64,000 nucleotides of DNA from Paracyclopina nana (lineage: Eukaryota > Arthropoda > Copepoda > Cyclopoida > Cyclopettidae), in assembly GCA_019096065.1 (NCBI GenBank), contig JAGUCH010000001.1, forward strand, positions 14,694,001 to 14,758,000, read 5' to 3'. A program made the translations under genes and the position numbers. Under the pieces are notes generated by a model that was not told where the DNA came from, did no database searches, and saw only the letters and a list, made by a program, of their open reading frames with translations. Positions 25,009 through 49,000 of the stretch are shown here, one piece after another (within the stretch, counting starts at the first letter, position 1; each line of letters begins with the position of its first letter).

Positions 25009-28000
25009 CTAATGCAGTTGCTGGACGGTGGCCGATCTTCGGTATTTTCCTTGGTGTCGAGAGGAATTTAAATGTTGCTGCTGCAACGGCCTTCGGTCCT
25101 CAGGCCAAAGTTTCACGCCATGTACGCTGAACACCGAGTCCTCTGCAAGGAAAAATGTTTGCAATAATCTCGCTGATTTATATTTCGGCCTACATTCCGT
25201 GCTGAATATTTATTCCCCCTTGAGATTAAATCCTGTGGCCCGACCACAATATCATATAGAGAGGAAGCAGCCCACAAGACCAGAAATCCTCTTGTAGATA
25301 TTATGATGAGGAGGACCAGGCTCTGCTGACACTGACATGCCATAAATTACAGAAGATCCATTCGCAACGTACAGCTAGAAAGGGACGTGCTTCCCAGTAG
25401 AATGCTGGTTTTTTATGCAAAGGTCATAAGGCTCTTTTTTGAGTTGACTAATGAGCTAATTAGCAAGAGTGTAACATGTCATGTCACCCAATTTGTTAGG
25501 AGCACAATTAGAGGCCTCTTTTGATATCCTTAATTGGCCTTCGAGCCTAATATTTGCTTGTCGAGCATCGTTTTCAGGTTGAAAAAAAAACATTTCCTCC
25601 ACTGTAGTGGCGAGGAAAGGAACAGTGTGTGTGTGTGCAAACATCTCTAGGGCCTAAACCACGAGCAATTTCTGCTTCTGCTAAAAGCCCTTTTTAGAGG
25701 AAAGCCTACTTTAGACTGCGGCATTATCCGAAAAAAAAGCTAGGCAAAGTGAAAAAAGCCCAGCTTAATGATGATGTACTCACCATCATCCAGCTCGAAG
25801 ATTTTGTGAGGTAATTCCGCAAAGTAACGATGACGTAAAGCCTGATCAGCTCCCACGCGTTTCTGAGCCCTTTGTTGGAGCATCAACGTGGCAAGGCTTT
25901 CTGCAAATGACACATCCAAGAGGCGTGGCCAGACCTCACCCAATCTCGAGGGTGGTGGGTAGTAGCATAACTTATGGGGCTTATAATTCGGCAATGATGA
26001 CACTCCAGGCCAGATGTCTTCCGTTGGAGTTCCAACCACTCGAAAGATCTTGTCCAGCTACAAATACAAAAAAAATCATCATAAGCACGAGCCAAACTTT
26101 TTTTGCGAACGAACTTCAGCCAACTTTGGTGCCGCCTAGCTCAAGGAAATTGAATTTTGCATGAATAATGACGTTCAGTATTTTTCGCACACTGAGGCCA
26201 AATTCAATAAATTATTATTAGTTCGAGATATCTCACCTGATCAAATACATCTCGCACGCCAGGAAAGCACGGGGCTCCGTTGAGCATTTCCACCAAAATA
26301 CATCCCACTCCCCACACATCAAGAGATGTGGTATAATTAGTTGACCCTAAGAGGACATCTGGAGGTCGATACCACAAGGTCACAACCTCATGGGAGTAGG
26401 TATGCGATGGCACGGATTTGGCACGGGCGAGACCTGCAAGCAGCCAATTTTTAAAAAGCTGGAAGATTAATGGGGCTCCTCATAAATTACTCTCACAAAA
26501 CCGCTTGAAAGCTTGATAAACCATGTTTAGCTGCTGTTGACAATCACCATTTTCCCCTTTTTCAAAACGGTTGTGTATTTCCCATTTGGCCTTACGCATA
26601 TGCTTCAGCCACGCGTACTATCTAGCATGTTAATTATGTATTTCGTCTAGCCCGTTCGAGAAGATGTATTTTGGCCGCCGACATTTTGTGCCTTAACGAA
26701 AAACCATAAAAGATACGAGAGGTTTCTTATCCCTGCTTCTCGCTGAATGTAGCCAAAAAAAGGAGAGATAACCAGGTACCACCTTAGCACTAGCCTCTTT
26801 TGCTCTGCTGCATCACTAAAGTGGTTGGCTGTCGTCGGATGAAAAACAAGCGAAAGCTTGTAGGCGTTACATCTAGCTAGTTACATCTATGCCATCATCA
26901 GATTCCGTGACATTTTATCAGAAAGACATGACAGCTAGTCACCGACTGTTGTATAGTACCTACACCACTCTGACACAATTGCGGTAATTAGAAAGCCCCA
27001 TAGTAGTGCGTGGGAACCAAAATGCACTCAGGGGTAAGTGCAATTTGCACCCTTGTGGGGGTGCAAAGGTGCAATTGCACCAAGGTGCAAAACAGGTGCT
27101 TTCTCAGGGTTGCACCATAGTTTTTAGTGCATTGCACTTTTGGTGAGGGTCAGTCACCTTGAGTTGCTACGGGGATAAAGAGCTCAAAATGGAGGAAATA
27201 GTCAAATTTGTTGCACCCATGAATCACAAGTATGCTACTTTGGAAAGTAGACTCAACTCATTTGTCACCTGGCCCAAATACTTAATCCAAACCCCACTTG
27301 AGATGGCCAGGGCAGGATTTTTTTACTCTGGGGTTGGTCACATTGTTTTTTGCTATTATTGTCATCATAAATGGGAAGAATGGATCAGGATGTTTGATCC
27401 TTGGGAGGAACATATTCTGTGGTCTCCCAATTGCCCCTATGTCCGATTGATGAAGGGAAAGTGTTATGTAGAGACTGTCACAGAGAGAGCAGAGAATGAC
27501 GACGACTTTTCAATACTTGAATGCATAACATGCATGATTTGCTCAAAGAATCCACGAACGAAGGAGAAGGATAAAAAACCCTATTTTGCAATGAAAGAAG
27601 AAGAAGAATGTAACACCTCAACAATACAAAATGAGTGCAAAATATGTTACAAAAGAGAGATCAACATGATGTTTTTACCTTGTAACCATGTGGTGTCTTG
27701 CCTAGTTTGTGGAACCTCAGTCAACAGATGCCCTATCTGTAGGATTCAGTTGACTGGCGGAGCAAGAGCTTTTTTGTCTTAATTCTTTTTAATGTGCTCA
27801 TTAGGTTTTCTCAGAAAATAAAGTCTCAATTTCATCCCAGAACCAAAATGAGGTAAAAAAATAGAAGTGGTAGTTTTATGCACACAGGTACAAAAGTAGT
27901 GCATAACAAGTGCTTTCTCATGAACAAAAGCACAGGTCCAGTGCAATGCACTTTTTGTGTGGTCAGTCACCTCTTGATGACTGGAGGAGAGAGAGCTAAA

Positions 28001-31000
28001 AAAAAATGGATCATATAATTATATTTAGAGAAACCATGAACAAAAGGTATGCTACTCTGGAAAGTAGACTCAAATCATTTGCAACTTGGCCTATTGGCTT
28101 AACCCAACGCCCTATTAAAATGGCAAAGGCAGGATTTTTTTACTCTGGGTGTGGAGATAGTGTCTACTGCTACTATTGCCATGGTGGCATACATAGATGG
28201 TTGCCTAATGAGGATCCTTGGGTTGAGCATACATTATGGTTCCCCACCTGCCCCTATGTCCGTTTGATGAAAGGGGATCGGTTCATAAGACAAGTATGGC
28301 TAACTGGATCAACAGCGAGCAGGATCCTCAGTGAACAGAAAAAGGATGAAGGAGATGATGAAATAGAAGAAGCTAGGAGGTCAATGTTGAAAAATGAGTG
28401 CAAAATATGCTACCACAGAGAAATTGGCATGCTATTTTTGCCATGTCACCATGTGGTGTCATGTTTAGTTTGTGGAACCTCAGTCTACACCTGCCCTGTC
28501 TGCAGAACTCAGTTGATTGGTGCTGTAAGAGCTTTTTTGTCGTAAATAAATAAAAATTTCTTACATGTATCATACAAGTTTATTCGGAAAGCTTAGTTCC
28601 ACATTTTGTAGTCATTGGACTCTGTTTTTCTCACTTTGTTTGTTGCATGATTATCTAATGCACGACGATCATACCAATCTGGCATAATGCGAGTCTTTGG
28701 GTCTCTGGCTGAGGCAACTTTTCGTTTCTGAGCTTCCCCAAGGGCATGAATATTTTTTAAATGCCGCTTTAGTGAATTACCACGGGTAAATTCAGAGCCA
28801 CAGAGGGAGCAAGCAAAGCGTGGTGCCTCTTCTATCTCCATGGGTGGTTCTTGCATGGGGTCAATGATAGTGTTTGATTCTGGCATCATTTGCGGCTCTG
28901 GGGCAACTTCTTCAATCGGTGGTGGTACCTCAGTCACCGGCTGCAATTGAGCTTCCCCTGATGTTGGAAGAAGCTCATCATTTTGCTGCCTCTCTGGCTC
29001 TTGCACCTCAACTGGTGGAGGAGGCTCTGACATGCTTACAGCTGCTCCCATTTCATTCAGTCGGTTCAATTCATCTTCTTCTTCCCTTCTCATTTCTTCT
29101 TGAAGTTTCCTGATAAAGCGATTATATACTGGGAGAGTCACAAGTGCCATGCTTTGCACTGCGCTTTTGAAGTTTTTTGGTCTCATGGCACAGCAAGCTA
29201 AGATGAGGCAGGCTAGTCTTGATGATGGTAGTTAATTCTTTTTCTTTTTTCAGCAGTCGTTGTCGTTTACTCTTCAAAGGTTTGTTTTATTCATTAAAAA
29301 GTCAAAATCTTGCTTGTTGTCTAGGTAGAATTTTTCAGTTTGCTCTTTTTCCCACCTGGCATTGGCATACGTGAATAGTTGATATTGTAGATAACCTCAC
29401 AAATTTTATCTACTGATGCATCATCAATCCTTTTTAATATTTCACCCCTGTCCTGGGGCTTGGCGTTGCAAACAGCCTGCAGAAAGCCCAGTGCACACTT
29501 TTCAGGTGTAAGAGACTTCATGACTCTCATGCAACTACAAGGCCCATCTTCTTAGGTGCATGATGCTGGGAGGAATGTGATCATTGGGCTTTCTTCATCA
29601 AATATTCGGGATCGTAAACGCACCACGTCCGATTGCCACACAGTAAAATCAATAAGTAGATAGCCATAGGGAAGTCGAGTTGCTTTTGGAATGTTTCCAC
29701 AAAGAATGAGGGAATAAGCTCCAATTTGAGAGGCAAGGGTTGTGACTTGGCGAGCATCTCTGGGATTTCTAAAGAGCACCAAGTACTGTGAGTTCAGTGA
29801 AATGGTACGCATAGCTCTAGATTTATAAAAAAGGGATTGCGAAACTAGAATGACTGACACCCTTTGATGGTGCACAGTTTGTGCAAAGAGCAACTCTAGA
29901 CCATTTCCATCTAAGGCAGCCAATGAGTCATCTAATATGAATAGTGACCCACTAGGATCTTCATCCAGATAGCTCCTGGCAAGGTCTTTCAGCTCACTTT
30001 GATGGGGAATGCCTCGAATGGTGCGTGAGACAAGACCTTGTTTTAGCATCAAATCATACTTTGGTTGGGATTCTTGGTAAAACAGGACAACATTTTTGGG
30101 CGGATCTTTGACAAGCTTGTTCAAGTGCTGAAGGAATCGCATGCAGAAAGTAGTTTTGCCAGTTTGAGAACTGCCAACTACCAGCATTGAAAAGGGGTGA
30201 TGTAGTGAAACGTCAAACATTATTTTTTATTTTAAGGAGCATGAAAGGTGACTCTTCGCTCTGCATCAACTGAGAAACCTGATTCATAGACTGCATACAC
30301 AAACATGACGAGTGATTTGTCTAAGGCATTTTTGAACACAACTCCGATGTCTAAAGATCCTTGTTGGGGTTGAATGGGGGCTGATGTGCCACAGCCCAGG
30401 ACATCAAGGCAATAAAAATTGTTCCCACTTTTGAAGCTTTCATAGCTGATAGGAATGCGTTCTGGGTGATCACCAAGACCAAGGGTCCTGATGAAATGTG
30501 TGTACCAATGCAGGTATTTGTTCTTTTCATAATCTAATTTTTGATTCACAGGTTGCACAATTTCGCCGTGTTTTCTAAAGTACAAATCAGTGATCCCGTG
30601 ATTTGCAAAGATGTAGGGGTTTCTCAATGTTCCACTTAAGTTATTGGAGTCTACAAACCCAACAATGATTAACCTTGGCAAATCACCTACCACCACCGAT
30701 TGAAAGGTGGTTGAAGTAATGGCAGCTGGAACAGTGATGGTGTTAACTTTGACTAATGGGTGGTAGTAGAAAGCTGGGCTCTTCAATAGTCGCTGTTGAT
30801 GCTTTTCTACCAATTTAGGGTGCAGAGTGATAAATTTGACAGCTAACTTCAGTTTTGTCAGCTTGACTTCAAAGGTGTGGGTTGTAGATGCAGTGCTTGA
30901 GATGATGGAAAAGTCATCACTGTTGCGATGAAAGGCAAACTTGAGTGAAACACCATTAAGCAAATATTTGTTAGTTCTCAAGCAGTCCAAATGAATAAAA

Positions 31001-34000
31001 GTTTCAAAATCAACTTCATTGGAGTGCTTCACCATTTCAGCTCGCTCATTGTAGCCAACATTGCCTCCGCTCTTGTGGTTAGTGCCTTCCTTGCCGGCAG
31101 TGTCTGCAGCCCAGCAACATGAATGCTTTAAAAAGCTGCTTTTGTAGCCGTTGTCGAAGCTCAGCAAAGCTTCAATGTATGCCTTTTGCATATAGGAGAA
31201 TGACCCATTGTCTGTCACAGGAACACCGTTCAGTTCCAGTGTCACAAGTCGCCAAAAGGAGGATGGACAATAATTGACAACACTCACATCATCTGTATCT
31301 CCCAATAGCTCCTCTGCTCCACTATCAAGCTTCTTTTTTTGAATTTTAAAAGTCCCAATTAATCGTGTAGCAGACAAATCAATGTAGTCAGCATTGGGTG
31401 GTATGACAAACTCTTGCACTGAGCTATCTTTTAGAGGATTGTGGGTATCATAATAAACAATGCGTCCATTTAGCAATCCTGCATCTTTGTGATAGGTATC
31501 AAAAATGCTTGATTGTTGATGCCTAAATTCATCCATTGCGTGTCAAGATACGTTTCCGATGCGTTAAAAACGTTGTTTCTTTGTAATTGAAATAGTGATC
31601 AAAAAAGGGCTGAGAACAAAAAAGAGCTTAGTTCAATGTTGGGTGTGCAGGAAGCAACAACGCTCAATCCTAGCCTTCCAACTGTTGTTGTTCGAAACGT
31701 TAAACTGAGTGCAAAAGTCAATCCCCGCTCTCTCTCAGATATAGAAGGTCGGTGTGTTAGTGAGAAAATCAGGTGCAAAAGTTTCCACAATTTCTTGCAG
31801 TGTTATTGCTCAAACTCGTTGCGTATAAGTTTCTTTAGGTCTGGTGGTCAACGGAGCCAGCACTGCAACATTACTGGGTGCTCCACTGTCCATCAAGTTT
31901 TGGAAGCAACGAAACTTATAGAGCGCTTAGCCCAATCTCCAATTGTGTCCCTGAAAGTTGACAACGTAACAACGGATTGTCAACTGGAGCAACAACTGCA
32001 CCTTGAGCACCTTGAAAACTTTGAAACTAGGCTTAATTCTGAGCTATTCTCAGGCCTGTATATTAAGGTGAATACCCCTTTTGGTGAAGTACTTGCAGTT
32101 TCATACGAAAGTGGTAAAACAATTTTTTTGAAAAGTTTGTCCGCTCAGGCTTGCCAATGGACAAGGAAAGCCTTGAGTGCCACTGCCTTGACTATGAAGA
32201 CTCGCTAGGACAATTTACATTCTGCCCTAGATGTCTTAGCAAAAAAATGGCTCCCGAAGAGGATGAAATGATCCAGCTTCTCGAGAGAATTCACATGCCA
32301 TTAGTGCTTGTAGAGCGGTTCAAAAGCTTGGTGAAAGCTAAGTTGGGGCTGGCACAACGTTCACTCATCAATGCAGTGTGCCTCTATGAGTTGTGCAAGG
32401 AAGAGAGTGTTCCACGCACACTTAAGGAGATAAGTTCGGTCTGTGGATTGACGATCAAGCGACTAACACAAGGGCTAAAAGTAACGTTTCCCGAATCAAA
32501 GCCTTTTCATCCTGCCCTGCTGGCCTCTCGGTTTGGAACCCTTTGCGGATTAGATAGGCGGCAAGCTTTGTGCCTAGAAAATCTAATTTACGCTGAGCAT
32601 CCACCTGGGCATTCATCACATTCACCATCAACCTGGGTAGCTGCTTACATACTTGTGTATGCCCAAAAAAGTGCCTTAGACATTTGCCCTGAGGTGGTAG
32701 CAAGAACGTGCGGGATTTCAAGGGAAGCAATATCCAGGTTTTCGCAAAAGCATGATTTGGACATTTCAGCCCTGTGCAAGCGCAAGCGAAGAAGAGAAAG
32801 AATCACCCCTCCAACCTCAGGCACCAAAAGAGCCTCAAAAACCAAAAAGGGAAAAGAGAAAACGAATGAGCGAAGATCCCATCATTCATCATGCCGAGGC
32901 TAAAAAGAGCCGTCAAACTGCTTAGAGATAAATATACGATCCCTGGACATCCAATTGCTTTTGCGGGCGTTGAAAAGATTCATCAGTTCTTCAAGGGGCA
33001 GCTGTCCCGTGAAGAAATTGAAGAGTACTTGAAATCTGTAGATGTCTTCACAGTCCATCGTCAGCCCAAGCCTAGTAAAATCTACAACCCTATTTATGTA
33101 TACCACAAACGCGACCAAATTCAAGCGGACTTGTGCTCATTTTTTCAGCAAGAGAAGTACAATCAGGGGTTCAAGTATCAATTAGTGATCATTGATTCTT
33201 TCACCAGATTCGCTTGGGTGGTACCATTAAAGAACAAACGTGGACCAACTGTGCTAGCCGCCTTCTCCAAGGTGTTTGACGAAGAAATTCACCAGGCTAG
33301 GAAACTGATAGTTGATGCGGGAACCGAGTTCCTCAATAGGCCATTTAGGTCGTGGCTTGATTCCAAAGGCATCAAGCTTCATGTCCCAAGAACCCTAGGG
33401 AAGGCTAGCTTTGCTGAAGCCTTCATCAAAACTCTAAAATCGCTCATTTCAAGATACTGCACTGAATACAGCACCAGCTCCTTTGTTGAGGTGCTCCCAA
33501 AACTTGTGAAAAGTTACAACTTTCGGGTACATCGGGCCATAGGAACAAGCCCTGTAAAAGCGGAACGTGATCACAAAGAGCAGCTGCGAATCCGTGAGGC
33601 AAATTTGTTGCGCTATGCATCGATAACAAAGCGCAAGCCTAAGTATGAAGTGGGACAGCTTGTCAGGATCTCAAGGGACCTTGGCAAATTTGGTCGATCC
33701 TTCAATGCCCACTTTACCAACGAACTTTTTATTGTGAAGGAAATCGCCGACACAATGCCTATTCCCTTGTACACTCTCACTGACTTAAAGGGCCAGGACA
33801 CATTGGAGGGGAGGTTTCGCAATGAAGAGCTCACTGGGGTCAAGCTTTCACTTCAATTGCATGTGGGCAAAATCCTAAGCAAAGAAGGTGACTATTGGAC
33901 CATCAACTTTCAAGGGGCTCCACCATCATTAAGAGTAAAGTTGCATCGTAAAAATTTCAAGAAACAATAAAAAGATGCTTCTCCACTTAACTTCTAAACC

Positions 34001-37000
34001 GGAAACACCTCATTTAGCTAGCGTGAAGTTGCCCAAGAGCGGGGGCCTAGAATGTGGGGTGCTTTCAGTTTGCTTTTCATCTAGTTTCATCAACGAATCT
34101 ATGCCTATCAATCCTGATCTGCCGGCCATGGCACTACTTGATACTGGCTTGGATGTTTCAAAAGAGTCATTGCTCAATTCAGCCGGTATTTATCTGCAAC
34201 ATGTACCCCTGTCCTTGTTTCACTTAACATTTTTACTCTCAAAAGAGCACACTAATCAAACACACCTAAAAGTAACTTATGATCCTGCCAGAGATGCTGT
34301 CTACCTGCTCTATCCCACTCTGCAAATCCCTTTCCCATACTTGTGGGTGCATGAAGGTTTGTTCAAGTTCTTGTGGAGAAATACAGAGCCAAGCCAGGTT
34401 GCATCATTCAACGGAAAGCACCAAGTTGATGGTGAAACATACTTCTCATTGAGCATTCGTCACTGGAAGGTCAAGTCTCAACACTATGTTTTCTTGTCAA
34501 GTAATGGTAACCTTTCAGATTCACTGCCGACACTGTACAAGCCTATTGTGCACCTGACCTGTCCCCAACTTTTGCACCCACCATTTGTTGGGCCACCCAT
34601 CATTGCATCCATGGAAGTTGCATCGCCTCAGCAACATGTGTATGTTGAAAAGCAATTTAAAAATGCCCACTTTTTTGCTCTTTCCAAAGATTTCGAATCT
34701 GAGTTTGTTATTCAGTTATCTGACTCTGAAGGAAACCCACTGAGACTTCTACCAAACACAAAGCCTACAATTATCAGACTGTTAGCAAGACCGATGGGAG
34801 AAAAGAGAGAACACACATTCTTTGCCACTGCAACATCAAGAGGAGGCAAGAAGAATTGCCTCTCTCTCTCTTTTGGATCTCAATTGAGTGTAGGGCAATG
34901 GAGCCTAGCCCTTGCAACAGTCATGTTCAGCCCTCGGTTTTCAAACAACCTCTCGGTTGAAGAAAGGCGAATTCATATTCTCAAAGAGTATGCCCCTAGT
35001 GCAAATAAGATGGCTGAGGAATTTGACATCATTATGCCATCAGGCATACTCTCTGTGGGTGAGCTCAAGCAATCTGTAACGTCGCAAAGCAATTATAGAG
35101 TCAAGTTGGACTTGGAGCCCATCCACCAGTGCGTCATTTTCCACCCACCAGAGAGCAATGCAAGGCTTACCCTCTCTATGAGCGCAAAATTGGCCCAGTT
35201 TTTGGGTGCCCAAATTCAAAAAGAGCAAATGAGCGCTAAATATCATGGCCACAAGATTGAATTTCCTCGGCCTGTTCAGCGAAGCAGTATTTCGCCCAAT
35301 TGCATAGTTGTGTCTTGCAATGCTGTCCCAATTCAACCCATTGGAAAGCTTACGCTCCCAGCGCTTGGAATTGTACCAATTGAAACAACTAATTTAGAGG
35401 GTTTCATTTCATATGAGCCACCATCGCATCACTTTTTACCCATCTTAGTTTCAAGCGTAAGAAGAATTGAGTTTGAGCTCAGAACTCTGGAAGGCGCGCT
35501 CGTAAACTTTGATGAGGAGCATCCTGAAGAAGAAGTAGTGCTCAATCTAATTTTCAAGAGGAGTCATTAGTTATGTGAACTTGGAATTTTTTTATTATGA
35601 TCTGAGATTGAAATAAAAACCAAAAAAAAACCGAATAAAAAAAATGGGTTGTTGTAGTAAATAAGCACGACAATAAGAAAGGGAAAAAAAGTCCTCATTC
35701 ATTATTTGCATTCATCCACTCCCTCAGCATGGTTTCTTGCTCCACTCGGGATAGCCCCAAACATCTTCTGCATTTGCCCTTGAAAATGACAATTTCAGGT
35801 GAGCCAAGCGGACAACTGTGGTTGGAACAATCAAACCAATGACGCTTGAGGTCAGTGATGGTGAGGCATTTTTTTTTGAATCCATATGTCCCAAGCAAAA
35901 AGTTTTCATGCGAATGCCGTAAAAGTGGCGTATTTTCTCTTTTTTCAATGTAGGTTTGAAAGTAGTCCTCGAATGTAAACTCTTTTTCTACTAGTCTTGA
36001 GGGGACACCTTTGCACCGCTTGTGCACCAAAGTTGCACCTTGCTTTGCTATCTTGAGCGCATAAGACTTGGGTCGAAGTGCAACACACTCCAAAATTTCT
36101 TCGTCACCATTCACTTCAAGCTTCCAAAGATGCGGGTGATTTTTACGTGAATCATCATGCATTTCATGCTCTCTTGGAAAGTTTGAAGTATCTAAGAGAT
36201 GCTTGAGACGGTGCAAATCTTTATCGGCATTCTTCTTGTCCACTTTGATGATGTATGAATCTGTGTCATGGTACTGAACTGAGAGACTGTCTGGCCAAAC
36301 AGCGGCAAATTCAAAGTACAAATCATTATAAACTTTGTTTTTGGCCAACTCGAGAATGGCAAAAGCAAGGTAAATTGGCTTATTCAGGCGAACACGCTTT
36401 GGTTGCATGTAAACAAATGTCAATCCTGAGCCCAGCTCTTTGAACCCCTTGAAGTTTGATGAGTTAACCCACTTTTGGATGTCAACGGGTCTTTTAGAAA
36501 CTTTCAGCTCAATGTAGCTCCGTACCTGCTCATTAGTTTTTCCATAAATGGAGTTGGGGATAGACTTCAGCATGTTGCCTTCAAACTTTGTCTTTGCCCT
36601 GGCTCTGCGTTTAAGAAAATCCATCATAAAGTCTTGGCCAAAGGGGCGCTGATCAAATTCCAAAATTGAGTGGATTTTGTCCAATCGCATGCCTATCCTA
36701 AGATAAGTTTGCAGCGTTGCCAAGTGGGTCATGTAATTCTTGCGTGGAAAATATGTTGCTGTGAGCAGTTTTTGTTGAAACTTATCCCGTCCCTCAATGT
36801 CCTTCATGAGGCGCCTAGTGAAGGTGGATACCATGTCTTGATCCACCGTCAGTGATTCAGGGCAGAGTGGAAAGTCACTTGTCTTCAAACAGATACTTGC
36901 GGGGTAGTGCAAGTCAACAAGAACAAAGTACCCTTTCCCCTCTGCCAAGGGGTTGATATCCATCAGGGGGAAATGCTCCACCTCTGCCGGTGAGAGCCAC

Positions 37001-40000
37001 CGAAAACCACCAACTGGCAAGCTTAGCATAAAGCAAGAGCAATAAAGGCTATTTGCATCAATGTAATACACTGAGGCATCATCGGTTTTAGTGGTGTGAT
37101 GCATGGAGGCAGAGCATAGCCCTCCTCTGATTTGGGACTCAAACAGCTTGTAAGTGTCCAAATCGGTCAACAGTTCTAGCTCAACCTTGGTGAGCTTGAG
37201 AAATGAATCAAACCCCATCGATGGAAGAGTCATGTACCTCAGACTTTCAAGGCCCAGCGTCTCCATCATTTGCGATCGGTACACTTGCATGACCTCTGCC
37301 AATAGCAGGGTATCCAGATGCATGTACACCACCATGTAGTCTAGCATGGTCTGACATTCCAGCATTCTAAAGAGTTCCTTGCCTTTAGCATGTTCCTCTT
37401 TGGTAGCTGAGAAGTCTTGAATCAAGTCGCTGTAAAAGTGATCCCGAGCGGGAAACTCATGCCATACCTTGAGAGACTCAACACTGGTCACCAACTGGTA
37501 GGGAAACGGTGCTTTAGTCAAAAGTTTTTCTTTTCGACTCAAATCAAAGGTTCCTTGCTTGTTCTTGCAAAGATCCGATTGGGCAAGAATCGGATATTTG
37601 TGGTTGCTGGCTTCCAGTGTCTTGGCTAAAGTGGCTAGGCTTGAGTTCAAATGATGCATACTGTCAATGCAAATGAAGCTGTTGAACTGCAGGCACCTCA
37701 GCTTTTCCATGTTTTTTGGCAAAGCTTTGATGCTTCGAACGTGGTTATTTTCAATGCCTTTCAGAATGAAGGAAACATCATAGTGAAAAAGGTTGTGCAT
37801 GACCACCACAATTTTCTGAGCTGAATCAGCCGCTTTCATGTTGCAAACATGGTGAGCGGCACCAATAAAAGCCCCAGAATTGTGGTTATGATGGGCCACA
37901 ATGCGCTGGTATCCATCAGGGAGTTGATGCTGGGAACCATACCTCACGTCATAAACAGGATCAAAAGGCTCCAGACACAAGCAGCATCTTGGAGCGTCAA
38001 AAAAGCTATCCCATTCCCTGGCTCCCAAGGCAGCTGGGACAGAGGCCGAAATTTTTTTCAGCAGCAAAGGCTCCAGGTCCAGCAAGGCTCGGACAAATTT
38101 GGTGCCAGCACATCGAGCATCGCAAGTATCCCAAGCTTCATGAAGAAGGCGGCTTTCATGGTCAACAACCACAAATGAATATGAAATGGCTTCATGAGAG
38201 TGAGTTTGCTCCGTGTATGGTGAATCCGAGTGTGAGTTGCATTTGCATTTTGCACCTATAGCAGTTTTTTCCAGGACGCACTTTTGGCAGGGCTGTTGCG
38301 TTGGCAAAAGAGCAGACTCAAAGTCACCATAGATGACAATTGGAGCTTGTATTTGACGATTTGTATTCTTAAATTGTAGAATGGGAGGCAAACCGTCATC
38401 AGTTCTTCGTGGCATGATTTCCTCGGGACCAAAAACAGGAAACGTGCCATCGATGTAATGGGAAAACACGCAACACTTGCTTTGATGCTCTTCCAGTTTG
38501 GTAAATGAATAAAAGGTGTTTAAGCATCTTTCGCAAAATTTGCGACGTGTGTTCCTTGATTCCTGAGCTCCATGCTTGTAGGGAGCTAAAAACTTGTTGA
38601 TGTTTTCAATGAGCAAGTATCTCCATTGTGTTTCGCCATCTGCTGATGGAATTCTCAAGAGGGGAACCAAGTACTTAGGCCTGTAGTTTTCAGGGGCTTG
38701 CAATGCTGTAACAATTGGCTGAACGCTGTTGTCATTTTCCAAGGAGAAGAGATGGATTGCAAAATTAAAGGTTCTTCCGTTTTGATGAACAAATTTTTCC
38801 ACAAACTCAATTTCATCCTCGGTGAAAGGAGGTTGATTAAAATCTTGGGGTGAGCAATCAATAGCGTGTGCCAGAGCGTAGTAAAAAGAGGCGCGCTCAT
38901 TGACGTCAAAATGTCTCAAGTGTTGCACTCTAGGAATGCTCATGGCGACTAAAGAACATGAGTGAGTCAACTGTGGGAATTCTATGCACGGGAGAAAGAC
39001 TGAGAAAGCCTACCTGTCCCGCAAAACAGACATGTCTAAATGAAGAGTAATTTGACCGAGAAGTGGAATGTGCTTTTATTTACGTGTGATGAATAAATCA
39101 TTATGCACCATGATTGGTGGACTAGTTGATATGGACTAGTGGAGGTATTGGGAAAAAAAAATGGTATCAGAAAATAATATGAGATCATGGGACACGCATG
39201 CAATAAAAAAAGCTATTCAATCAACTCATTGAAACCTTCATCCTCATCAGCCACTTCTCTAATGCGAACCCCGATGTCAATGCGTACGCTCTTTGCCCCC
39301 TCGATTTGACCACTAGGAATTAGAGCCTCCAGCTTGGTCACAGTTTCTTGCGCAGTGCGCATGTTCCTCGTAATGAGTCTCGAGGTGCGCTTGAGTGCAT
39401 CATCATCCAATGTGCCGAAGCAAAAGATTGCTTCAATGGCAATGTTGACAATCTTGAGTGGCATTGCTGACACCCTCGCGAATGCAAAAGGCGACAGCAT
39501 GGTGCGTCTTTGAATGTGCGCCTCAACATGAGAGACATAGGGTGAGGTCATCATGCTGGAGGGATCATGAAGTGCCATAAAATCCTTGACAATCCTCTTC
39601 ATTGCATGGATGTGAGCTTTGAGCTCATAACATTGAAAGATGCCACGATGTATTGCCTAGAGTAAAAAAAAAATGCATGTAAGCTGAAGCTACTGCATAA
39701 TCTATATCACACCTGACTGCATTCAAAACCATCAAGCCCCTCAAGGCCGGTGAGAGCAATGGTACCCGATTCAGCGCTGTCCTTTGCTGCTTGGAGATGG
39801 AATTCAATGCACCAAAAGAAGCGATCGACATCCACTGGGCGGAGCACACCAAATTGAATCTCCATGTTCATGTTGTCGTCAAACAAAATCTGTAACAAAA
39901 AACCAGTGTCGGTGAGAAAAAAGAGTGTTTTGTGTGCTGGGAGGGGTGCAAAATGGGGCAAGAACCATACTTTAATTCTTTATGCATTTTTTTTGTCAGT

Positions 40001-43000: not shown

Positions 43001-46000
43001 GCATGGATGCTAACCAGCATGAGATACTATCATGGACGCCTGTTTCCTACGGAGCATGCACAGGAGGCCTTGGAATTTTGGCTGCCAATGCAGTTAAATA
43101 GGCGACTCGTGGGATTTTTCCCTGTCATTGATTTCTGTGGGCTTTGTGGCTTTGATAAGCGGATCATTCTTACTCATCAATTCAAAAATATGGAGGTGTT
43201 TTCCGAGGATCCCAAACTATTCTCACGCAGGGTGAATGGTGCTTTAGCCCTGGTGGATGATGCTGCTAGCTTCTTGTCCAAGGCGAACAGCACCATTATG
43301 CATCGATACTTTGAGCTAGCCTTTGCCTACTTGGAAACGCTACTCTGCTATGGAGGATCCAGCAGCGAGCTGTTGCACTACATTCAAAACTTGAGGCATC
43401 ATACCTTTCTAACTTTGGCCAATAATGAAGCAGATCCTTTAGAGAGGAAGTTCAAGCTTTGCTGCATCAGAAAAGCCCTACCGTCTGCCCATGGAAATCC
43501 GGAATTGTGCCCTTTAAACATGTTTCAGTGCAAAAGGGGTAGAATGTCCAGCATCGGCAATAGTGCACCTTTTGTCAAAGTTATCATAAAATATAAATAA
43601 AAAAGGTTGTTTTTTTCCAGGCCATTTTTTTATAGATTCATGACAATTAGTTGAGAAACTCATCAGCTCATTTTTTTCGGCAAATTTGCCAGAACATGGC
43701 TTTTTTTGCGCAAAATATTTGACTAAGCTTTGCAGGCCAAAAAAAAAAAGACCAAGTTAAAAAAAAATAAAAAAATGGGGTGCAATAAAGATACATTGAA
43801 GTAAACAAAGAAGATCTGACGAAACTCTATTTTTCTTTATTTGGTGGGGATACATGCATGTCAATCTCATTTACGAAGCTAGGTACTATTTCTCCGCTTG
43901 GTTGTTTTGTTGCTCAATATGTTGCTTAGATTTCTTGCTGCCACTGTTTTTTACATTACTCTTCTTAAAAGAGTAAGAGGGTTGAAATGCTCCTTTAGTT
44001 CTTATGAATTTTGTAAACTCTTCTTGTTTTGTCAATTTTCCTTTCATCGCCAAATCTCCCATTTTAAAGTTGACCAAATTGGGATCAATATGAAAAAGCT
44101 TGTGTTCACTTATAAACTTCATCAATTCAATGCTTGAACGAAGCTTTTTCCCAGTGGGAGTGATCAAGTACAAATCAGGCTTGCCACAGCTCTTGCCTGA
44201 TTGCCTCCAACGGATAATTTTCCGCCACCCTGGGCTTACAACTACACTTTGCTCTAAAAAAAAATATAGGGGTGCAATAAGCAACAAAAAAATCTGGAGC
44301 TAATAAAAAAACTATCATACAATATACTCTATTTCTCCTTGAATGTTTTGTTTATCTAAATGTCACATAGAAATTGGCCGATTGCCATAAGCCCCCAAAG
44401 AATATTATAGTCTTTCTTACCTTCATGTTGCATGGTTTGGTTGTTGGTAGCTTCCATGTTTAGCCTCCTTCTTATTGTTGTGCCAGTTGAAATTGACAGA
44501 TGAAATTCCAAATTTGGAATGGTGCTGACACTCTGTGATACCGACTATTTATAGGTAAATTCAGGATAATTAGCGCGGCTCCATTGGCTCAATTTGTTCA
44601 GCTTTCCTGCAAAGCGCTGCGTCGAACTCTCTCGCAGTCAGGATTGTAAAAGCAGATAAACAAATAAGCTTTTACGCACCTGAAATCAGGTGCTTGGACT
44701 TTTTGTATATCTCACAATGAGGTTGGTCAGAAAAAAGGTCATAAGGTTACTTTTAAGGCCATCCAGTCACCTAAAATACCATAATAGCAACGTGCTCTCC
44801 AAACAGGATTGTAAAATTAGAAAAACAAATAAGCTTTTCAACACCTGAAATCAGGTGCTTGGACTTTTTGTAATCCTCACAATGAGGTTGGTCAGAAAAA
44901 AGGTCAAAAGGTTATTTTCAAGGCCATCCAATCAACTTAAACACCATAATAGCATCATGCTCTGCAGTGAGAATTGTAAAATTTGAAAAAACAAATAACC
45001 TTTTATGCACCTGAAATCAGGTGCTTGGACTTTTTGTAATCCTCCCAATGAGGTTGGTCAGAAAAAAGATCAAAAGGTTATTTTCAAGGCCATCCAATCA
45101 ACTTTAACACCATAATAGCGACATGCTCTGCAGTGAGAATTGTAAAATTAGAAAAACAAATAAGCTTTTATGCACCTGAAATCAGGTGCTTGGACTTTTT
45201 GTAATCCTCACAATGAGGTTGGTCAGAAAAAAGGTCAAAAGGTTATTTTCAAGGCCATCCAATCACCTAAAACACCAAATCCTCGGCACAACTATAAAAG
45301 GGCTATAATGGCTGAGAAAAATCGGCACCAATTTTCAGCTTGTTATTGACATCATGATCATAACATTACACTGCCCACTTGTGATGAAGCATGGGAAGTT
45401 TTGGGTAGGGAAAGATTTCATGATCATTTTGACATCGAAAGTGTAATACTCAATTTAGGGCCTAATTAGCAAAGAAGCCATTAGAGCATTAGCTGAAAAA
45501 GCTGAAAAATAAATTCAAGGATTGATTCAAAAATAAAAAGAGGATACTAAATCAGAAAATATAGTTGAATTCCATCTGGAGAGGAATAAATTGGGCTTTT
45601 TTTCGATCCGGGCTTTTCTGTCAGAAAAAACTGAACAAAAACAGCGTTACTAAAGATTTTGATGAATTCCTCACATAGTTAGCACAAAGGCCAAATTGAC
45701 GATTTATTCAGCCTACCCACTTTCGCCCTTCAAGACCTGAAGGAATCCACATGGTCAATGTTGATGTTATGATTAAGATGTCTATTGGGAAGCAGTCAAA
45801 ACTGATTCGAATTGATGATACAGATTCAAATTTGACAACAAGAAAGATCTTTTTTCTTTTATTCTCAATTAATGTTTCTATTTACATACATGATTATCAA
45901 AAATGGATAAATAAGCAGATAAGTGAAGGCTGCAAGCAAAAACAGTCTTTAAAACAAGCTTTTTTAATTCAAAAAAAGGCCCAAAGTGGGGCTTCTCCAT

Positions 46001-49000
46001 GCTGAAGGAAAAGTTCTAATTTGTTGACACTGCTGGTGATCATCAGCCCTTACAGTTGGCTTCTTTTTGATGCTACAAAAAAAGTGCTGGTGCCTGAGGT
46101 CTAAGCTGTCACCCTGGATGTTGTGGTAGATTTTGTGGGCTGTTTCCAAGAAGGCCTCTTCGACCACCCATCTCCAGTTTTGGCAGAGGCATCGACAAAC
46201 ATGAGGCCATATCACCTCTGCAAATTGACGAGCTTCCTCAAAAGTCACATCTCTCTGTGCTTCCAAATCACGCTTATTACCGATTAGAAATATCACCTGG
46301 GAAATAAAAAAGAGAAAAAGCATGGTTCACATCTACATGGACAGCTAACAATTGCTGAATTTTTACCAAGTTTGGATTTGTTAGGTTTCTTGCATTCGTG
46401 AGCCAGCTGCTGTACCAATCTTGGCCAGCTGTGTCCCAAATCTGCAGCTTGATTTTCTGCCCCCAAATCTTTTGTTGGATTCAGTTCACCGAAAATTGCT
46501 TGCTGCCAGCTTGTCTGTTGTACTATTCTTCAATTTGAATTGCCACATTGTGGTGGCAGCATTGATGTTGTTGCTCATCAACTTCTGGGTGCTCCTGCTG
46601 TTGTTGCTGCTGCTCGACGTTTTGCTGCGGTTGCTGCTGTCCTTGATGAGGCTGCCTGCGCCTCCTTGCTGGCAAAAACCTCCAAAATCTTTGGCCTCTA
46701 TGGCCTCTACGGCCTCTTCCTCGTCGTTGCTGCTGGTCTGGCCTTTGATCGTCATCATCATCGTCATTCTCATCGTCTTCATTCAGTCTGCGATGTTGCT
46801 GCTGCTCTTGAGCATCTTGTCGGCGGCGATACCAGCGATAAGCACGAACGGCCAAGTCGCCAATGTTATACAAATTTGTGAGCACAGCGTGAATAGCTGA
46901 AAATAAAGAAAAAAAAAACGAGATCAATAGACAGCAAACCGTCGTATACGCAGAGGTCAGAAATTGTCAACAATTTTTTTCCGTTAAACTTAGTGAAACA
47001 ATGAGTGAAATGTTTGCATCATGATTTAATCATAGAACTTACTTTGCACTTGTCCCATTCTGTTGACGGAGTCTAAAATCTGCCTATGCTCCGGACATTC
47101 ATCTAAATGGCTGTTGCTCTCATCCACTATGGCATATTCTTCCATTTTCTCATATATTTCTATAAGTGGAAAAAAAAATGATCTTTTTGTTTCTCATTTT
47201 AAATCATCGAAGTGAGTTTTTTCCCATTAAAAGTACTGGGGCAACAGGGGGTTCCAAAATGATGTCACAAATTGTTACAATAACTGGGGAAAAAATTGAG
47301 CTGGGCTAAGAAGTTATCCAATCATGAAGTCAAAAATTGGAGATGAAATGAGAATTTGGCGATTTGGCGTCGTGTGACATCAACTTTCTCACCTACTGTG
47401 CATGTCCCCCCAAAAATGTGCATTTAAATTGTTTTTCCAAAACAAAAAACAGTTATTTTCATAATTTTATAATCAAGAAAATCACCTACCTCAAACGAAG
47501 TTTTTAGGCTGACTGCGATATTCCGCTGAGAACTGAAACACAAACTGTAGCTGAGGGAACTCAAGCAGCTGAGATTAGCTCAAAATTGATGACAGGGAGG
47601 TAAAAACTAGCATATACTTTGAAGAGAGCTTTTTCTGAAGAAAACACTTGCCAATTTTTGCAATTCATACAAAAACCATCTCAATCATAATTACGCTTTG
47701 TGGCAATCCCTAATATGAGGTGTCATCATCATTCAACCCTCTGGCTATTTTTCACGAATTGCTTATTGGAATAATAATAGAAATTGTTATTAACTATGAT
47801 TTATTCAGCCCCATCTCGATCATCATTACACACAATGAAAGAGGTGATGTATATTGTTTTCCTGCAGTTGACCACACCTGTCGTGCACTCCACAATTGTC
47901 CTGTTGTAATTATGAGACATTCAAGTTCCTCCTTTTGATGGTGCCGATTTTGACCAGCCATATTGAAAGCAAAATCAATCACCATCTTGGTTTACATTCA
48001 TGATTTTCCTATCAATAACCCCATGCTTATTGTTTCATTCCTCATCCTGTTGCTGGAAAAATTGGAGTAACTGCATGATCAATCATAATTTTCAGTCTGT
48101 AGCATTTCAATTTTACAGCAATTATCATGGACCAACAGCATAAGTTGCACCCCTTTTTGACCATTATTTTCCCAATCACAAAATCCATATTTTTAGCTGA
48201 TCCACCATCCGGATCCAATCTTCCCATTTACAATGACAACAATAGCAAAAAACAATATGGGCAACTCCAGAGTAAAAAATCTTGCCTTTGGCCATTTCAA
48301 GTGGGGTTTGGATTAAGTATTTGGGCCAGGTGACAAATGAGTTGAGTCTACTTTCCAAAGTAGCATACTTGTGATTCATGGGTGCAACAAATTTGACTAT
48401 TTCCTCCATTTTGAGCTCTTTAACTCAAGGTGACTGACCCTCACCAAAAGTGCAATGCACTAAAAACTATGGTGCAACCCTGAGAAAGCACCTGTTTTGC
48501 ACCTTGGTGCAATTGCACCTTTGCACCCCCACAAGGGTGCAAATTGCACTTACCCCTGAGTGCATTTTGGTTCCCACGCACTACTATGGGGCTTTCTAAT
48601 TACCGCAATTGTGTCAGAGTGGTGTAGGTACTATACAACAACCGACATATATGCATACTAGGAACGCATATTCGCGTTGCAAAACCCAGCTACTCCCCGA
48701 CTATATTGATTTATGGCCGAAAAAAGCATTCATAGTTATTGCCGATTGCAATTTCAACGTTTTTGTGGTTTCTAGTCCAATGGTCTATTTTCGCGTGACA
48801 TTTTTGTCTTACTGTCCCCACTGTGCAATTGGGCTTTGCTTACGGAGGCTCTGGTAGCAATAATTTTTGCCGCTAGGAGGAGCTAATGATAGCACAGCTA
48901 ATGGCAGCGTAGGCTAAGCGGGCTGAAAATTGAATTTCGATCTGTTTCTGTTTGCACCTGCTCTGCTGCTAGCCCCGATCTAAAAAATTACACTTCCGAT

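Follow-up and report, generated by a model that had tools for sequence, protein, structure and literature searches.

Two overlapping frames were noticed on the plus strand of a 64,000-nucleotide stretch of DNA from the copepod Paracyclopina nana (the window), and the initial annotation proposed that they belong to a Polinton encoding its own TBP-like and TFIIB-like transcription factors. Are the frames homologues of TBP and TFIIB, are they part of a mobile element, and what might they do for it? We know of no answer to how Polintons, which are transposon- and virus-like, time the expression of their capsid genes. A conserved TBP/TFIIB pair beside a putative capsid gene makes this timing testable.

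Structure of the element

Both frames are enclosed by a 21.7-kb element with near-perfect terminal inverted repeats (TIRs), a 6-bp target duplication, a protein-primed type B DNA polymerase (PolB) and a retrovirus-like (rve) integrase. The left TIR (26947..27309) begins TGTTGTATAGTACC and contains two arms, 26947-27165 (219 nt) and 27176-27309 (134 nt), that are 100% and 99% complementary to the right end, respectively. The right TIR spans 48289..48640. The target duplication ACCGAC lies before the left TIR at 26941-26946 and after the right TIR at 48641-48646.

The integrase (359 residues; 32891..33970, plus strand; Pfam rve 2e-10) is encoded directly downstream of the TFIIB-like gene, with an overlap of 13 nt between the two frames. 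The PolB gene (35695..38970, minus strand; first ATG at 38943) is matched by PF03175 with 60 bits at window positions 36988-37815 and by a PHROG DNA polymerase at 5.9e-21. PolB was missed by the per-protein Pfam scan and by the PDB search. A P-loop protein of 222 residues (29552..30220, minus strand) is a candidate A32/FtsK-like packaging ATPase, with scores for AAA_22 (2.5e-4) and Pox_A32 (8.4e-4) that both lie under the curated Pfam cut-offs. The putative major capsid protein (MCP; 434 residues; 30232..31536, minus strand) is assigned by position and size; it gave no useful match in the PDB and none in PHROGs or Pfam. Its gene is arranged head-to-head with the TBP-like gene. A 531-residue ORF (33975..35570, plus strand) without a family match in Pfam or PHROGs is a candidate for the minor capsid protein solely because of its position. 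The element additionally carries two BIR-RING (IAP-like) genes on the plus strand, one at 27159..27782 that starts inside the TIR (BIR 7.3e-17, RING 2.2e-14) and one at 28006..28545 (BIR 2.2e-20, RING 4.6e-12). No maturation protease was identified among the element frames scanned, and no RNA polymerase subunit was recognised in the 17 element frames scanned.

The element resembles Polinton/Maverick elements (Adintoviridae) in its TIRs, 6-bp duplication, protein-primed PolB, rve integrase and size of about 20 kb, and more weakly in its A32-like ATPase (below cut-off) and putative capsid ORF (by position). It differs from them in the adjacent TBP-like/TFIIB-like pair. The TIRs, the duplication, PolB and the integrase, together with the homology of the pair described below, bear out the proposal of a Polinton coding for both proteins.

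The TBP-like protein

The TBP-like gene (31636..32208, ATG to stop, plus strand) encodes 190 residues with two TBP repeats: Pfam detects the second, and the first emerges from alignment. The Pfam TBP family matches the second half of the protein (E 8.3e-7; 29.2 bits vs a cut-off of 22.9) and all seven element TBP-like proteins at E <= 0.1, with a best value of 7.4e-11. Searched alone against the PDB, the window protein reaches TBP only at E 0.42; a profile with same-genome relatives added reaches solved TBPs at 2.6e-15. At E <= 1, 34 of the 36 PDB sequences matched by this profile carry TBP or TFIID in their names, counting fusions. The remaining two are ECU04_1440, which we take to be a microsporidian TBP, and IF-3 (E 0.4).

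Both halves of the protein align to host TBP, and one continuous match to the TBP chain 2z8u_A covers profile positions 12-193. Repeat 1 is the weaker one, as Pfam and most profile matches cover repeat 2 only. The LFSGL/SGKTIFL and ITGC motifs had been placed at TBP positions in the initial annotation, and the alignment agrees: the former occupy positions of the second repeat and ITGC the TGAK position of repeat 1.

The DNA-contact residues are conserved. Among 165 gap-free columns of the seven element TBPs, six are aromatic throughout. Three of these coincide with host Phe columns and a fourth adjoins the remaining host Phe column, an indel site at which three of the seven proteins have Phe and four have Val, the next column being Phe in all seven. 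The four host Phe positions are the DNA-kinking (intercalating) residues of TBP. One of the seven proteins retains the Thr of the second TGAK motif, and two retain the stirrup Leu. An AlphaFold model made without an alignment is of low confidence (pLDDT 39), and the 50 PDB matches listed by a Foldseek search with this low-confidence model include no TBP.

The TFIIB-like protein

The TFIIB-like gene (32157..32903, ATG to stop, plus strand) encodes 248 residues, sequentially composed of a zinc-ribbon-like N-terminus and two cyclin-like repeats. The bacterial-style ORF starts at a TTG at 32151 (250 residues), and 32157 is the first ATG. The window protein scores 23.5 bits with Pfam TFIIB, just below the cut-off of 23.6, and phmmer matches it to human TFIIB chains in the PDB at 2.8e-8. 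With same-genome relatives added, the profile reaches TFIIB in the PDB at 6e-25; at E <= 1, 10 of its 12 PDB matches are TFIIB and none is BRF. Since the E values of 2.6e-15 and 6e-25 obtained with the two family profiles are well beyond chance, the profile searches confirm that both frames are genuine, if divergent, homologues of TBP and TFIIB.

In the cyclin-like repeats, profile positions 35-220 align on residues 97-287 of human TFIIB. Profile alignment to human and host TFIIB thus recovers the two repeats that had been read from the sequence, and the 14-residue motif noted with them corresponds to CLYIACRQEGVPRT of human and host TFIIB.

The N-terminal zinc ribbon pattern C-x-[CH]-x12/13-C-x2-C is present in all seven TFIIB-like proteins examined, in the form C-x-C-x12-C-x2-C in the window. 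Its spacing differs in all seven from the C-x2-H-x15-C-x2-C of host TFIIB, the first knuckle being one residue shorter. Pfam Zn_Ribbon_TF was found in two of six proteins. From the last ribbon Cys to the RIHMP motif there are 18 residues in the window protein vs 89 in host TFIIB (approximately spliced), and because of this short gap the B-reader seems to be absent from the window protein. An AlphaFold model made without an alignment is again of low confidence (pLDDT 46) and consists of two strands followed by eleven helices. The top Foldseek matches of this low-confidence model lie in Pol II pre-initiation complexes and also comprise named TFIIB entries; for these entries the TM-scores reach only about 0.25-0.3.

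Linkage and conservation of the pair

The two frames overlap, as initially described; counted from the ATG at 32157, the overlap is 52 nt. They overlap in lineages A-D, an arrangement that would be compatible with coupled expression; in F1 there is no overlap. A single frameshifted protein was rejected as the cause of the overlap, since the two frames match different families, and those of F1 are separate.

The pair is in fixed linkage with the MCP and integrase genes. In the 92-Mb genome it adjoins the putative MCP gene at 14 of 15 places, in six divergent lineages that share the order MCP, TBP, TFIIB, INT; the single MCP place without it is a fragment. At 10 of the 14 loci neither frame of the pair is broken, and at the other four at least one is; the MCP frame is split at the five loci of lineages D and E. 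Identical copies occur at two other genomic sites. The C7 copy has its own target duplication, CTTAAT, and for the C2 copy one end only was found at the expected place.

The pair is under purifying selection. Between C1 and C2, dN/dS is 0.185 for TBP and 0.179 for TFIIB, and between D and E it is 0.09 for TBP at a dS near 2. The constraint is weaker than that on MCP and INT. Single-protein searches of a 5.8-billion protein set with either protein returned no relatives, and an alignment search found two, which come from other sequence sources. Scans of viral contigs, based on short peptide patterns, gave no match for either protein or its alignment, for the integrase alignment, for PolB or for P0001.

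Three capsid-less derivatives on three contigs lack the ATPase, MCP and TBP-like genes and most of the TFIIB-like gene. They share one junction, 28909|32684, and all six arms tested bear out the absence of the block 28910..32683. Because the co-lost genes form one contiguous block, their co-loss does not single out the pair. The integrase is retained in all three derivatives and a PolB match in two; the pair is therefore not needed in cis for DNA spread.

Comparison with host paralogues

The host genome has its own TBP, TRF2, TFIIB and BRF1 genes. A TBP together with a TRF2-type paralogue with spliced exons points to a bilaterian animal as the host, TRF2 being animal-specific. The element TFIIB profile scores 88.8 bits with host TFIIB vs 21.3 with BRF1, and the element TBP profile 50.4 bits with host TBP vs 9.3 with TRF2. 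These preferences give the pair a Pol II flavour, and a BRF/TRF2 origin was rejected because of the far better fit to host TBP and TFIIB. In trees with host outgroups only and long branches, the element TBPs are separated from host TBP and TRF2 with support of 100/100, and the element TFIIBs from host TFIIB and BRF1 with 87/88.

Comparison with known systems

The words TFIIB and TATA are absent from the main texts of seven papers on Polintons and adintoviruses (PMC11071308, PMC10120064, PMC11071296, PMC4028283, PMC10675110, PMC11244446 and PMC10328495), a set outside which the original Polinton and adintovirus descriptions lie. TBP is absent as a word from the main texts of PMC11071308, PMC10120064, PMC11071296, PMC4028283 and PMC10328495. 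Excerpts of this literature mention VLTF3, a late factor, in adintovirus-like insertions (PMC11244446) and zinc-finger regulators in some adintoviruses (PMC11071296).

Excerpts on larger viruses offer several parallels. The initial annotation called TBP and TFIIB homologues a feature of large nucleocytoplasmic DNA viruses. This holds for African swine fever virus (ASFV), megavirus and the Chrysochromulina parva virus CpV-BQ1, although the excerpted mirusvirus paper finds the mirusvirus TBP gene cluster in 0% of Nucleocytoviricota (PMC10132985). ASFV encodes the TBP-like B263R and the TFIIB-like C315R, and megavirus a TBP and a TFIIB; according to these excerpts they resemble the present element in having homologues of both factors in one virus. 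However, they possess their own multi-subunit RNA polymerase, no subunit of which was recognised in the 17 element frames. CpV-BQ1 has one TBP and two TFIIBs, and in the excerpted text its authors expect redirection of host Pol II (PMC12085832); it is, however, a large algal DNA virus and not a Polinton.

In poxviruses such as vaccinia, VITF-3 and VETF/Rap94 are described in part of a further paper as TBP-like and TFIIB-like partners that load the polymerase on a viral promoter class (PMC12917281). These pairs act with a viral RNA polymerase. By the same excerpt, they came to light only via structural work or advanced bioinformatics, whereas ordinary profiles suffice for the pair of the present element. 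The TBP-like proteins of beta- and gammaherpesviruses (EBV BcRF1, KSHV ORF24) form, in passages of PMC4893493 and by the listing of PMC12529657, a virus-specific pre-initiation complex with host Pol II at late promoters and act on TATT boxes (PMC4893493). Herpesviruses are much larger, and the present element adds a TFIIB homologue directly downstream of its TBP homologue. Mirusviruses are unrelated and also much larger; excerpts report a TBP gene cluster in 59% of them (PMC10132985) and sporadic TBPs in algal insertions of putative mirusvirus origin (PMC10675990), and the word TFIIB is absent from the main texts of both papers.

Proposed function of the pair

We propose, with a probability of about 0.7, that the pair serves as element-encoded general transcription factors that assemble an element-specific pre-initiation complex with host Pol II, most likely at virion genes. 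Two such genes side by side next to a putative capsid gene suggest a private start complex for host RNA polymerase. The TBP-like protein would bind and kink DNA at the element's core promoters, for which it may be specific. The TFIIB-like protein would dock onto it as a partner, and its zinc ribbon and cyclin core would recruit host RNA polymerase II, proposed as the target because the element has no recognised polymerase subunit. The complex would work beside or instead of host TFIID/TFIIB. The promoters served would most likely be those of virion genes, for example of the putative MCP gene that lies head-to-head with the pair, and would probably fire late.

An unlikely alternative is that the pair acts mainly against the host, silencing its genes, including immune and piRNA genes, by occupying or sequestering Pol II, TFIIA or host TFIIB. 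That both proteins have diverged from their host counterparts, and that the linker of the window's TFIIB-like protein is very short, would suit factors that bind without initiating, and the two BIR-RING genes could disturb host responses. However, the aromatic residues on or beside each of the four DNA-kinking positions and the zinc ribbon pattern in seven of seven proteins indicate a working initiation pair, and a decoy has no obvious need for both partners together at 14 of 15 MCP places.

It is quite improbable that the pair functions in replication, integration or packaging, with the TBP-like protein bending DNA at the TIRs or origin and the TFIIB-like protein as an architectural partner of the integrase or ATPase. 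The location between MCP and integrase and the 13-nt overlap with the integrase frame would fit such a role, but the derivatives, three with integrase and two with a PolB match, lack the pair, and we know of no such role of a TBP/TFIIB pair. The presence of TBP, TRF2, TFIIB and BRF1 genes in the host raises the case of a recent gene capture or an assembly contamination without function in the element, which we regard as extremely improbable. Contamination, named at the outset as a refuting outcome, was rejected: the homologous pair lies inside a TIR- and duplication-bounded element and recurs at 14 of 15 MCP places. Identical copies at two other sites, one gene order in six lineages, the separation of element and host proteins in the trees (long branches included) and the two relatives in other sequence sources likewise argue against capture.

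That the element redirects host RNA polymerase to promoters of its own, as first suggested in the initial annotation, still appears to be the best reading of the sequence. If it is true, reading of the capsid-side promoters would require the factors that the element encodes, and the two proteins would form a small natural pair for studying the minimal requirements of TBP and TFIIB. A 20-kb element with no recognised polymerase could then swap the two most universal initiation factors, a swap described for large viruses in the papers considered above. More tentatively, the element may represent a clade of animal Polintons in which a minimal self-encoded TBP and TFIIB core defines a host-independent promoter code for virion genes, read by host Pol II, and switches between two modes. 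In a transposon mode the element would replicate and integrate without needing the pair, as exemplified by the three capsid-less derivatives; in a virus mode the pair would turn the capsid genes on. We know of no smaller DNA element with a private Pol II pre-initiation complex such as this one would then have. Inspection by eye of 16 upstream regions and of the MCP-TBP intergenic stretches showed no shared motif; TATA-like words were visible in the MCP-TBP interval of lineages B and F only.

Organization of the element

The element that carries the TBP-like and TFIIB-like genes spans 26947-48640 (21.7 kb). Its inverted arms consist of 219 nt (100% identical) and 134 nt (99%), TGTTGTATAGTACC is present at both ends, and a flanking duplication, ACCGAC, lies on each side. 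The element encodes an rve integrase (INT; Pfam E 2e-10), a protein-primed type B DNA polymerase (PolB; PF03175, 60 bits; PHROG DNA polymerase, 5.9e-21), a P-loop ATPase weakly similar to A32, and, at the left end (27159-28545), a tandem pair of BIR-RING (IAP-like) genes, the first of which begins within the terminal repeat. A 434-aa frame is named putative major capsid protein (MCP) from its size and position, because no profile recognised it in PDB and PHROGs searches. This content fits a Polinton, with putative capsid genes. Among 17 frames of the element, a set that excludes some shorter or overlapping ones, none was recognised as an RNA polymerase subunit.

The right part of the element contains further features. 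A minus-strand frame at 43886-44287 matches the methyl-CpG-binding domain (Pfam MBD, 9.1e-14) and may read methylated DNA of the element or the host. Another at 45967-46323 (minus strand) matches the C-terminal portion of a Ras/Rab-type GTPase (1.2e-5) and is perhaps a captured host fragment. A direct repeat with a spacing of ~165 nt occupies 44658-45277.

The TBP-like and TFIIB-like proteins

The initial annotation placed two overlapping plus-strand frames at 31636..32903, and both are found there. The TBP-like frame runs from an ATG at 31636 to a stop at 32208 (190 aa). The TFIIB-like ORF opens with TTG at 32151, has its first ATG at 32157 and stops at 32903 (248 aa counted from that ATG); the frames overlap by 52 nt. 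Their proposed relationship to TBP and TFIIB is borne out by profile searches. The TBP-like protein matches Pfam TBP (E 8.3e-7; 29.2 bits, above the cut-off of 22.9), and the TFIIB-like protein scores just below the Pfam TFIIB cut-off (23.5 vs 23.6 bits) and finds human TFIIB among PDB sequences (2.8e-8).

By itself, the TBP-like protein reaches TBP in the PDB at E 0.42 only. Pfam TBP is matched by all seven family members (best 7.4e-11), and a profile of the seven yields, at E ≤ 1, 36 different PDB sequences, the best at 2.6e-15. Thirty-four are named TBP or TFIID; the others are ECU04_1440, itself a TBP, and IF-3 (0.4). Among six TFIIB-like members, five match Pfam TFIIB and two the TFIIB zinc ribbon (E ≤ 0.1). 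Their profile aligns with PDB TFIIB across both cyclin repeats at 6e-25, and 10 of its 12 PDB matches are TFIIB, the remaining two being an oxidoreductase (0.031) and a cyclin-like protein (0.044). On these comparisons, homology of the pair to TBP and TFIIB is not in doubt. Among host genes, the profiles score TBP above TRF2 (50.4 and 9.3 bits) and TFIIB above BRF1 (88.8 and 21.3 bits), so the pair is more probably of Pol II type than of Pol III type.

Single-sequence AlphaFold models are poor for both proteins. In the TFIIB-like model (pLDDT 46) eleven helices come after two strands, and the top Foldseek matches of this model are chains of Pol II pre-initiation complexes and named TFIIB entries, with TM-scores of only ~0.25-0.3. 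TBP is absent among the Foldseek matches listed for the TBP-like model (pLDDT 39).

When the element TBPs are aligned with host TBP, all seven carry an aromatic residue at 6 of the 165 gap-free columns. Three of these fall where the host has Phe, in RFAAV, ELFPG, and LIFVSG. The fourth host Phe column (TALIF) holds Phe in three proteins and Val in four, and the adjacent column, which sits at an indel, holds Phe in all seven. The four host residues are those with which TBP kinks TATA DNA. The opening Asn of repeat 1 and the first TGAK Thr are present in 7/7 element TBPs, and the repeat 2 Asn and the PELFPG stirrup Glu in 6/7; the stirrup Leu (2/7) and the second TGAK Thr (1/7) are poorly kept.

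The zinc ribbon of the TFIIB-like protein reads C-x-C-x12-C-x2-C in the window element (lineage A) and likewise in lineage B, C-x-H-x13-C-x2-C in lineages C, D, E, and F, and C-x2-H-x15-C-x2-C in host TFIIB. The B-reader/linker seems to be gone from the lineage A protein, as its ribbon lies 18 residues from RIHMP, compared with 89 in host TFIIB after approximate splicing. Two zinc-ribbon patterns occur in succession at the N terminus of the lineage C protein (loci L006/L020).

A family of linked gene pairs

The genome searched comprises 92 Mb in 10 contigs, with the window at C1:14694001-14758000. Sequence search finds 10 TBP-like places and Pfam search 16, the latter dividing into 5 host exons (from two genes) and 11 places in elements; the union of both searches gives 14 element loci. 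The putative MCP occurs at 15 places. At 14 of them a TBP-like gene lies within ~0.5 kb in the opposite orientation, followed by TFIIB-like sequence and then the integrase, with another frame intervening in D and E. The remaining place, C3:8996259, matches only as a fragment containing two stops, and neither genome-wide TBP search found a TBP-like place nearby.

The loci form six lineages: A (window, C2:2200841, and C7:6959926, with 100% identical TBP- and TFIIB-like proteins), B (C3:5881423), C (C9:3983384, C2:6458631, and C8:1924063), D (C1:16398020 and C3:9663776), E (C1:1070577, C2:14452171, and C2:2002853), and F (C9:811337 and C9:830102). Identity to the TBP-like protein of the window is 55% for B, 25 and 24% for two lineage C members, 22% for D, 22% for E, and 31% for F. 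At 10 of the 14 loci neither frame is interrupted. All three E copies have a split TFIIB-like frame, and two of them a split TBP-like frame as well; in the second F copy both are split. The MCP frame is split in D and E (5 loci).

Between the two lineage C members, dN/dS is 0.185 for TBP, 0.179 for TFIIB, 0.075 for MCP, and 0.067 for INT. Between D and E it is 0.09 for TBP (dS 1.96), and silent sites are saturated between A and B. These ratios indicate that the pair has been maintained as functional protein-coding genes, under looser constraint than MCP and INT. Selection is observed for the pair, as are homology, conserved DNA-kinking residues, and linkage.

An alignment search of 5.8 billion proteins adds two members at E ≤ 0.01, P0001 (1.1e-13) and P0002 (5.7e-10), both from ENA contigs (1.1 and 1.6 kb) and alignable over the full family length. 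No relatives were found in the viral contigs scanned. Phylogeny against the host homologues, which the initial annotation had suggested, sets nine element-type TBPs apart from host TBP and TRF2 (support 100/100) and six element TFIIBs apart from host TFIIB and BRF1 (87/88), with long branches in both trees. The trees comprise element and host sequences, with NCLDV and archaeal sequences left out.

Proposed role in transcription

The best-supported reading is that the pair would assemble, at the element's promoters, a pre-initiation complex of its own for host Pol II, most likely serving the virion genes. Promoter choice, TBP-TFIIB partnership, the use of Pol II, and timing are the parts that we infer. 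By eye, no promoter box common to the element genes was seen, and TATA-like words between MCP and TBP occur in lineages B and F only.

The annotation had named viral homologues as a feature of large nucleocytoplasmic DNA viruses. Homologues of TBP, TFIIB, or both are known in ASFV, megavirus, CpV-BQ1, poxviruses, and beta- and gamma-herpesviruses, the last of which use host Pol II. CpV-BQ1 encodes TBP and two TFIIBs, for which redirection of host Pol II was proposed (PMC12085832). A TBP homologue is also described in mirusviruses (PMC10132985) and, beside mirusvirus-like genes, in algal insertions of putative mirusvirus origin (PMC10675990). In PMC12638062, PMC11464507, PMC12085832, and PMC10132985, the TBP or TFIIB described belongs to large viruses or is a marker for them. 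The mechanism therefore has precedents in large viruses. Among papers listed by literature searches on Polintons, none reports this pair in its title or abstract opening, and word searches of the main texts of Polinton/adintovirus papers, which included TBP for most of them, did not find it.

Capsid-less derivatives and possible gene exchange

Three capsid-less derivatives (C3:1717304-1738197, C7:4630135-4651030, and C9:2260987-2281890; L013-L018) contain lineage A sequence as inverted arms of at least ~3.2 kb that are 99% identical. The arms carry the BIR region, the TFIIB-like tail, and the integrase, which is present on both arms and in some broken. All six arms share one junction, joining window positions 28909 and 32684. 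The C7 and C9 loci contain a PolB match; searches of the derivatives found no ATPase, MCP, or TBP-like gene, and of the TFIIB-like protein only the tail. The pair is therefore not needed in cis for the spread of such DNA. It is lost together with the virion block, an observation that is suggestive only, because the lost block is contiguous.

The dS between the two lineage C members differs by gene, at 0.187 for TBP, 0.223 for TFIIB, 0.142 for INT, and 0.082 for MCP (L005, L006, L007, L020-L022), and such inequality within the same two elements is a mosaic pattern. Among the lineage A copies on contigs C1, C2, and C7, the ATPase differs by 4-7%, the TBP- and TFIIB-like proteins are 100% identical, and MCP and INT are 99-100% identical. 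The ATPase divergence suggests gene exchange between elements. The ATPase frame is broken in the copy on contig C7.
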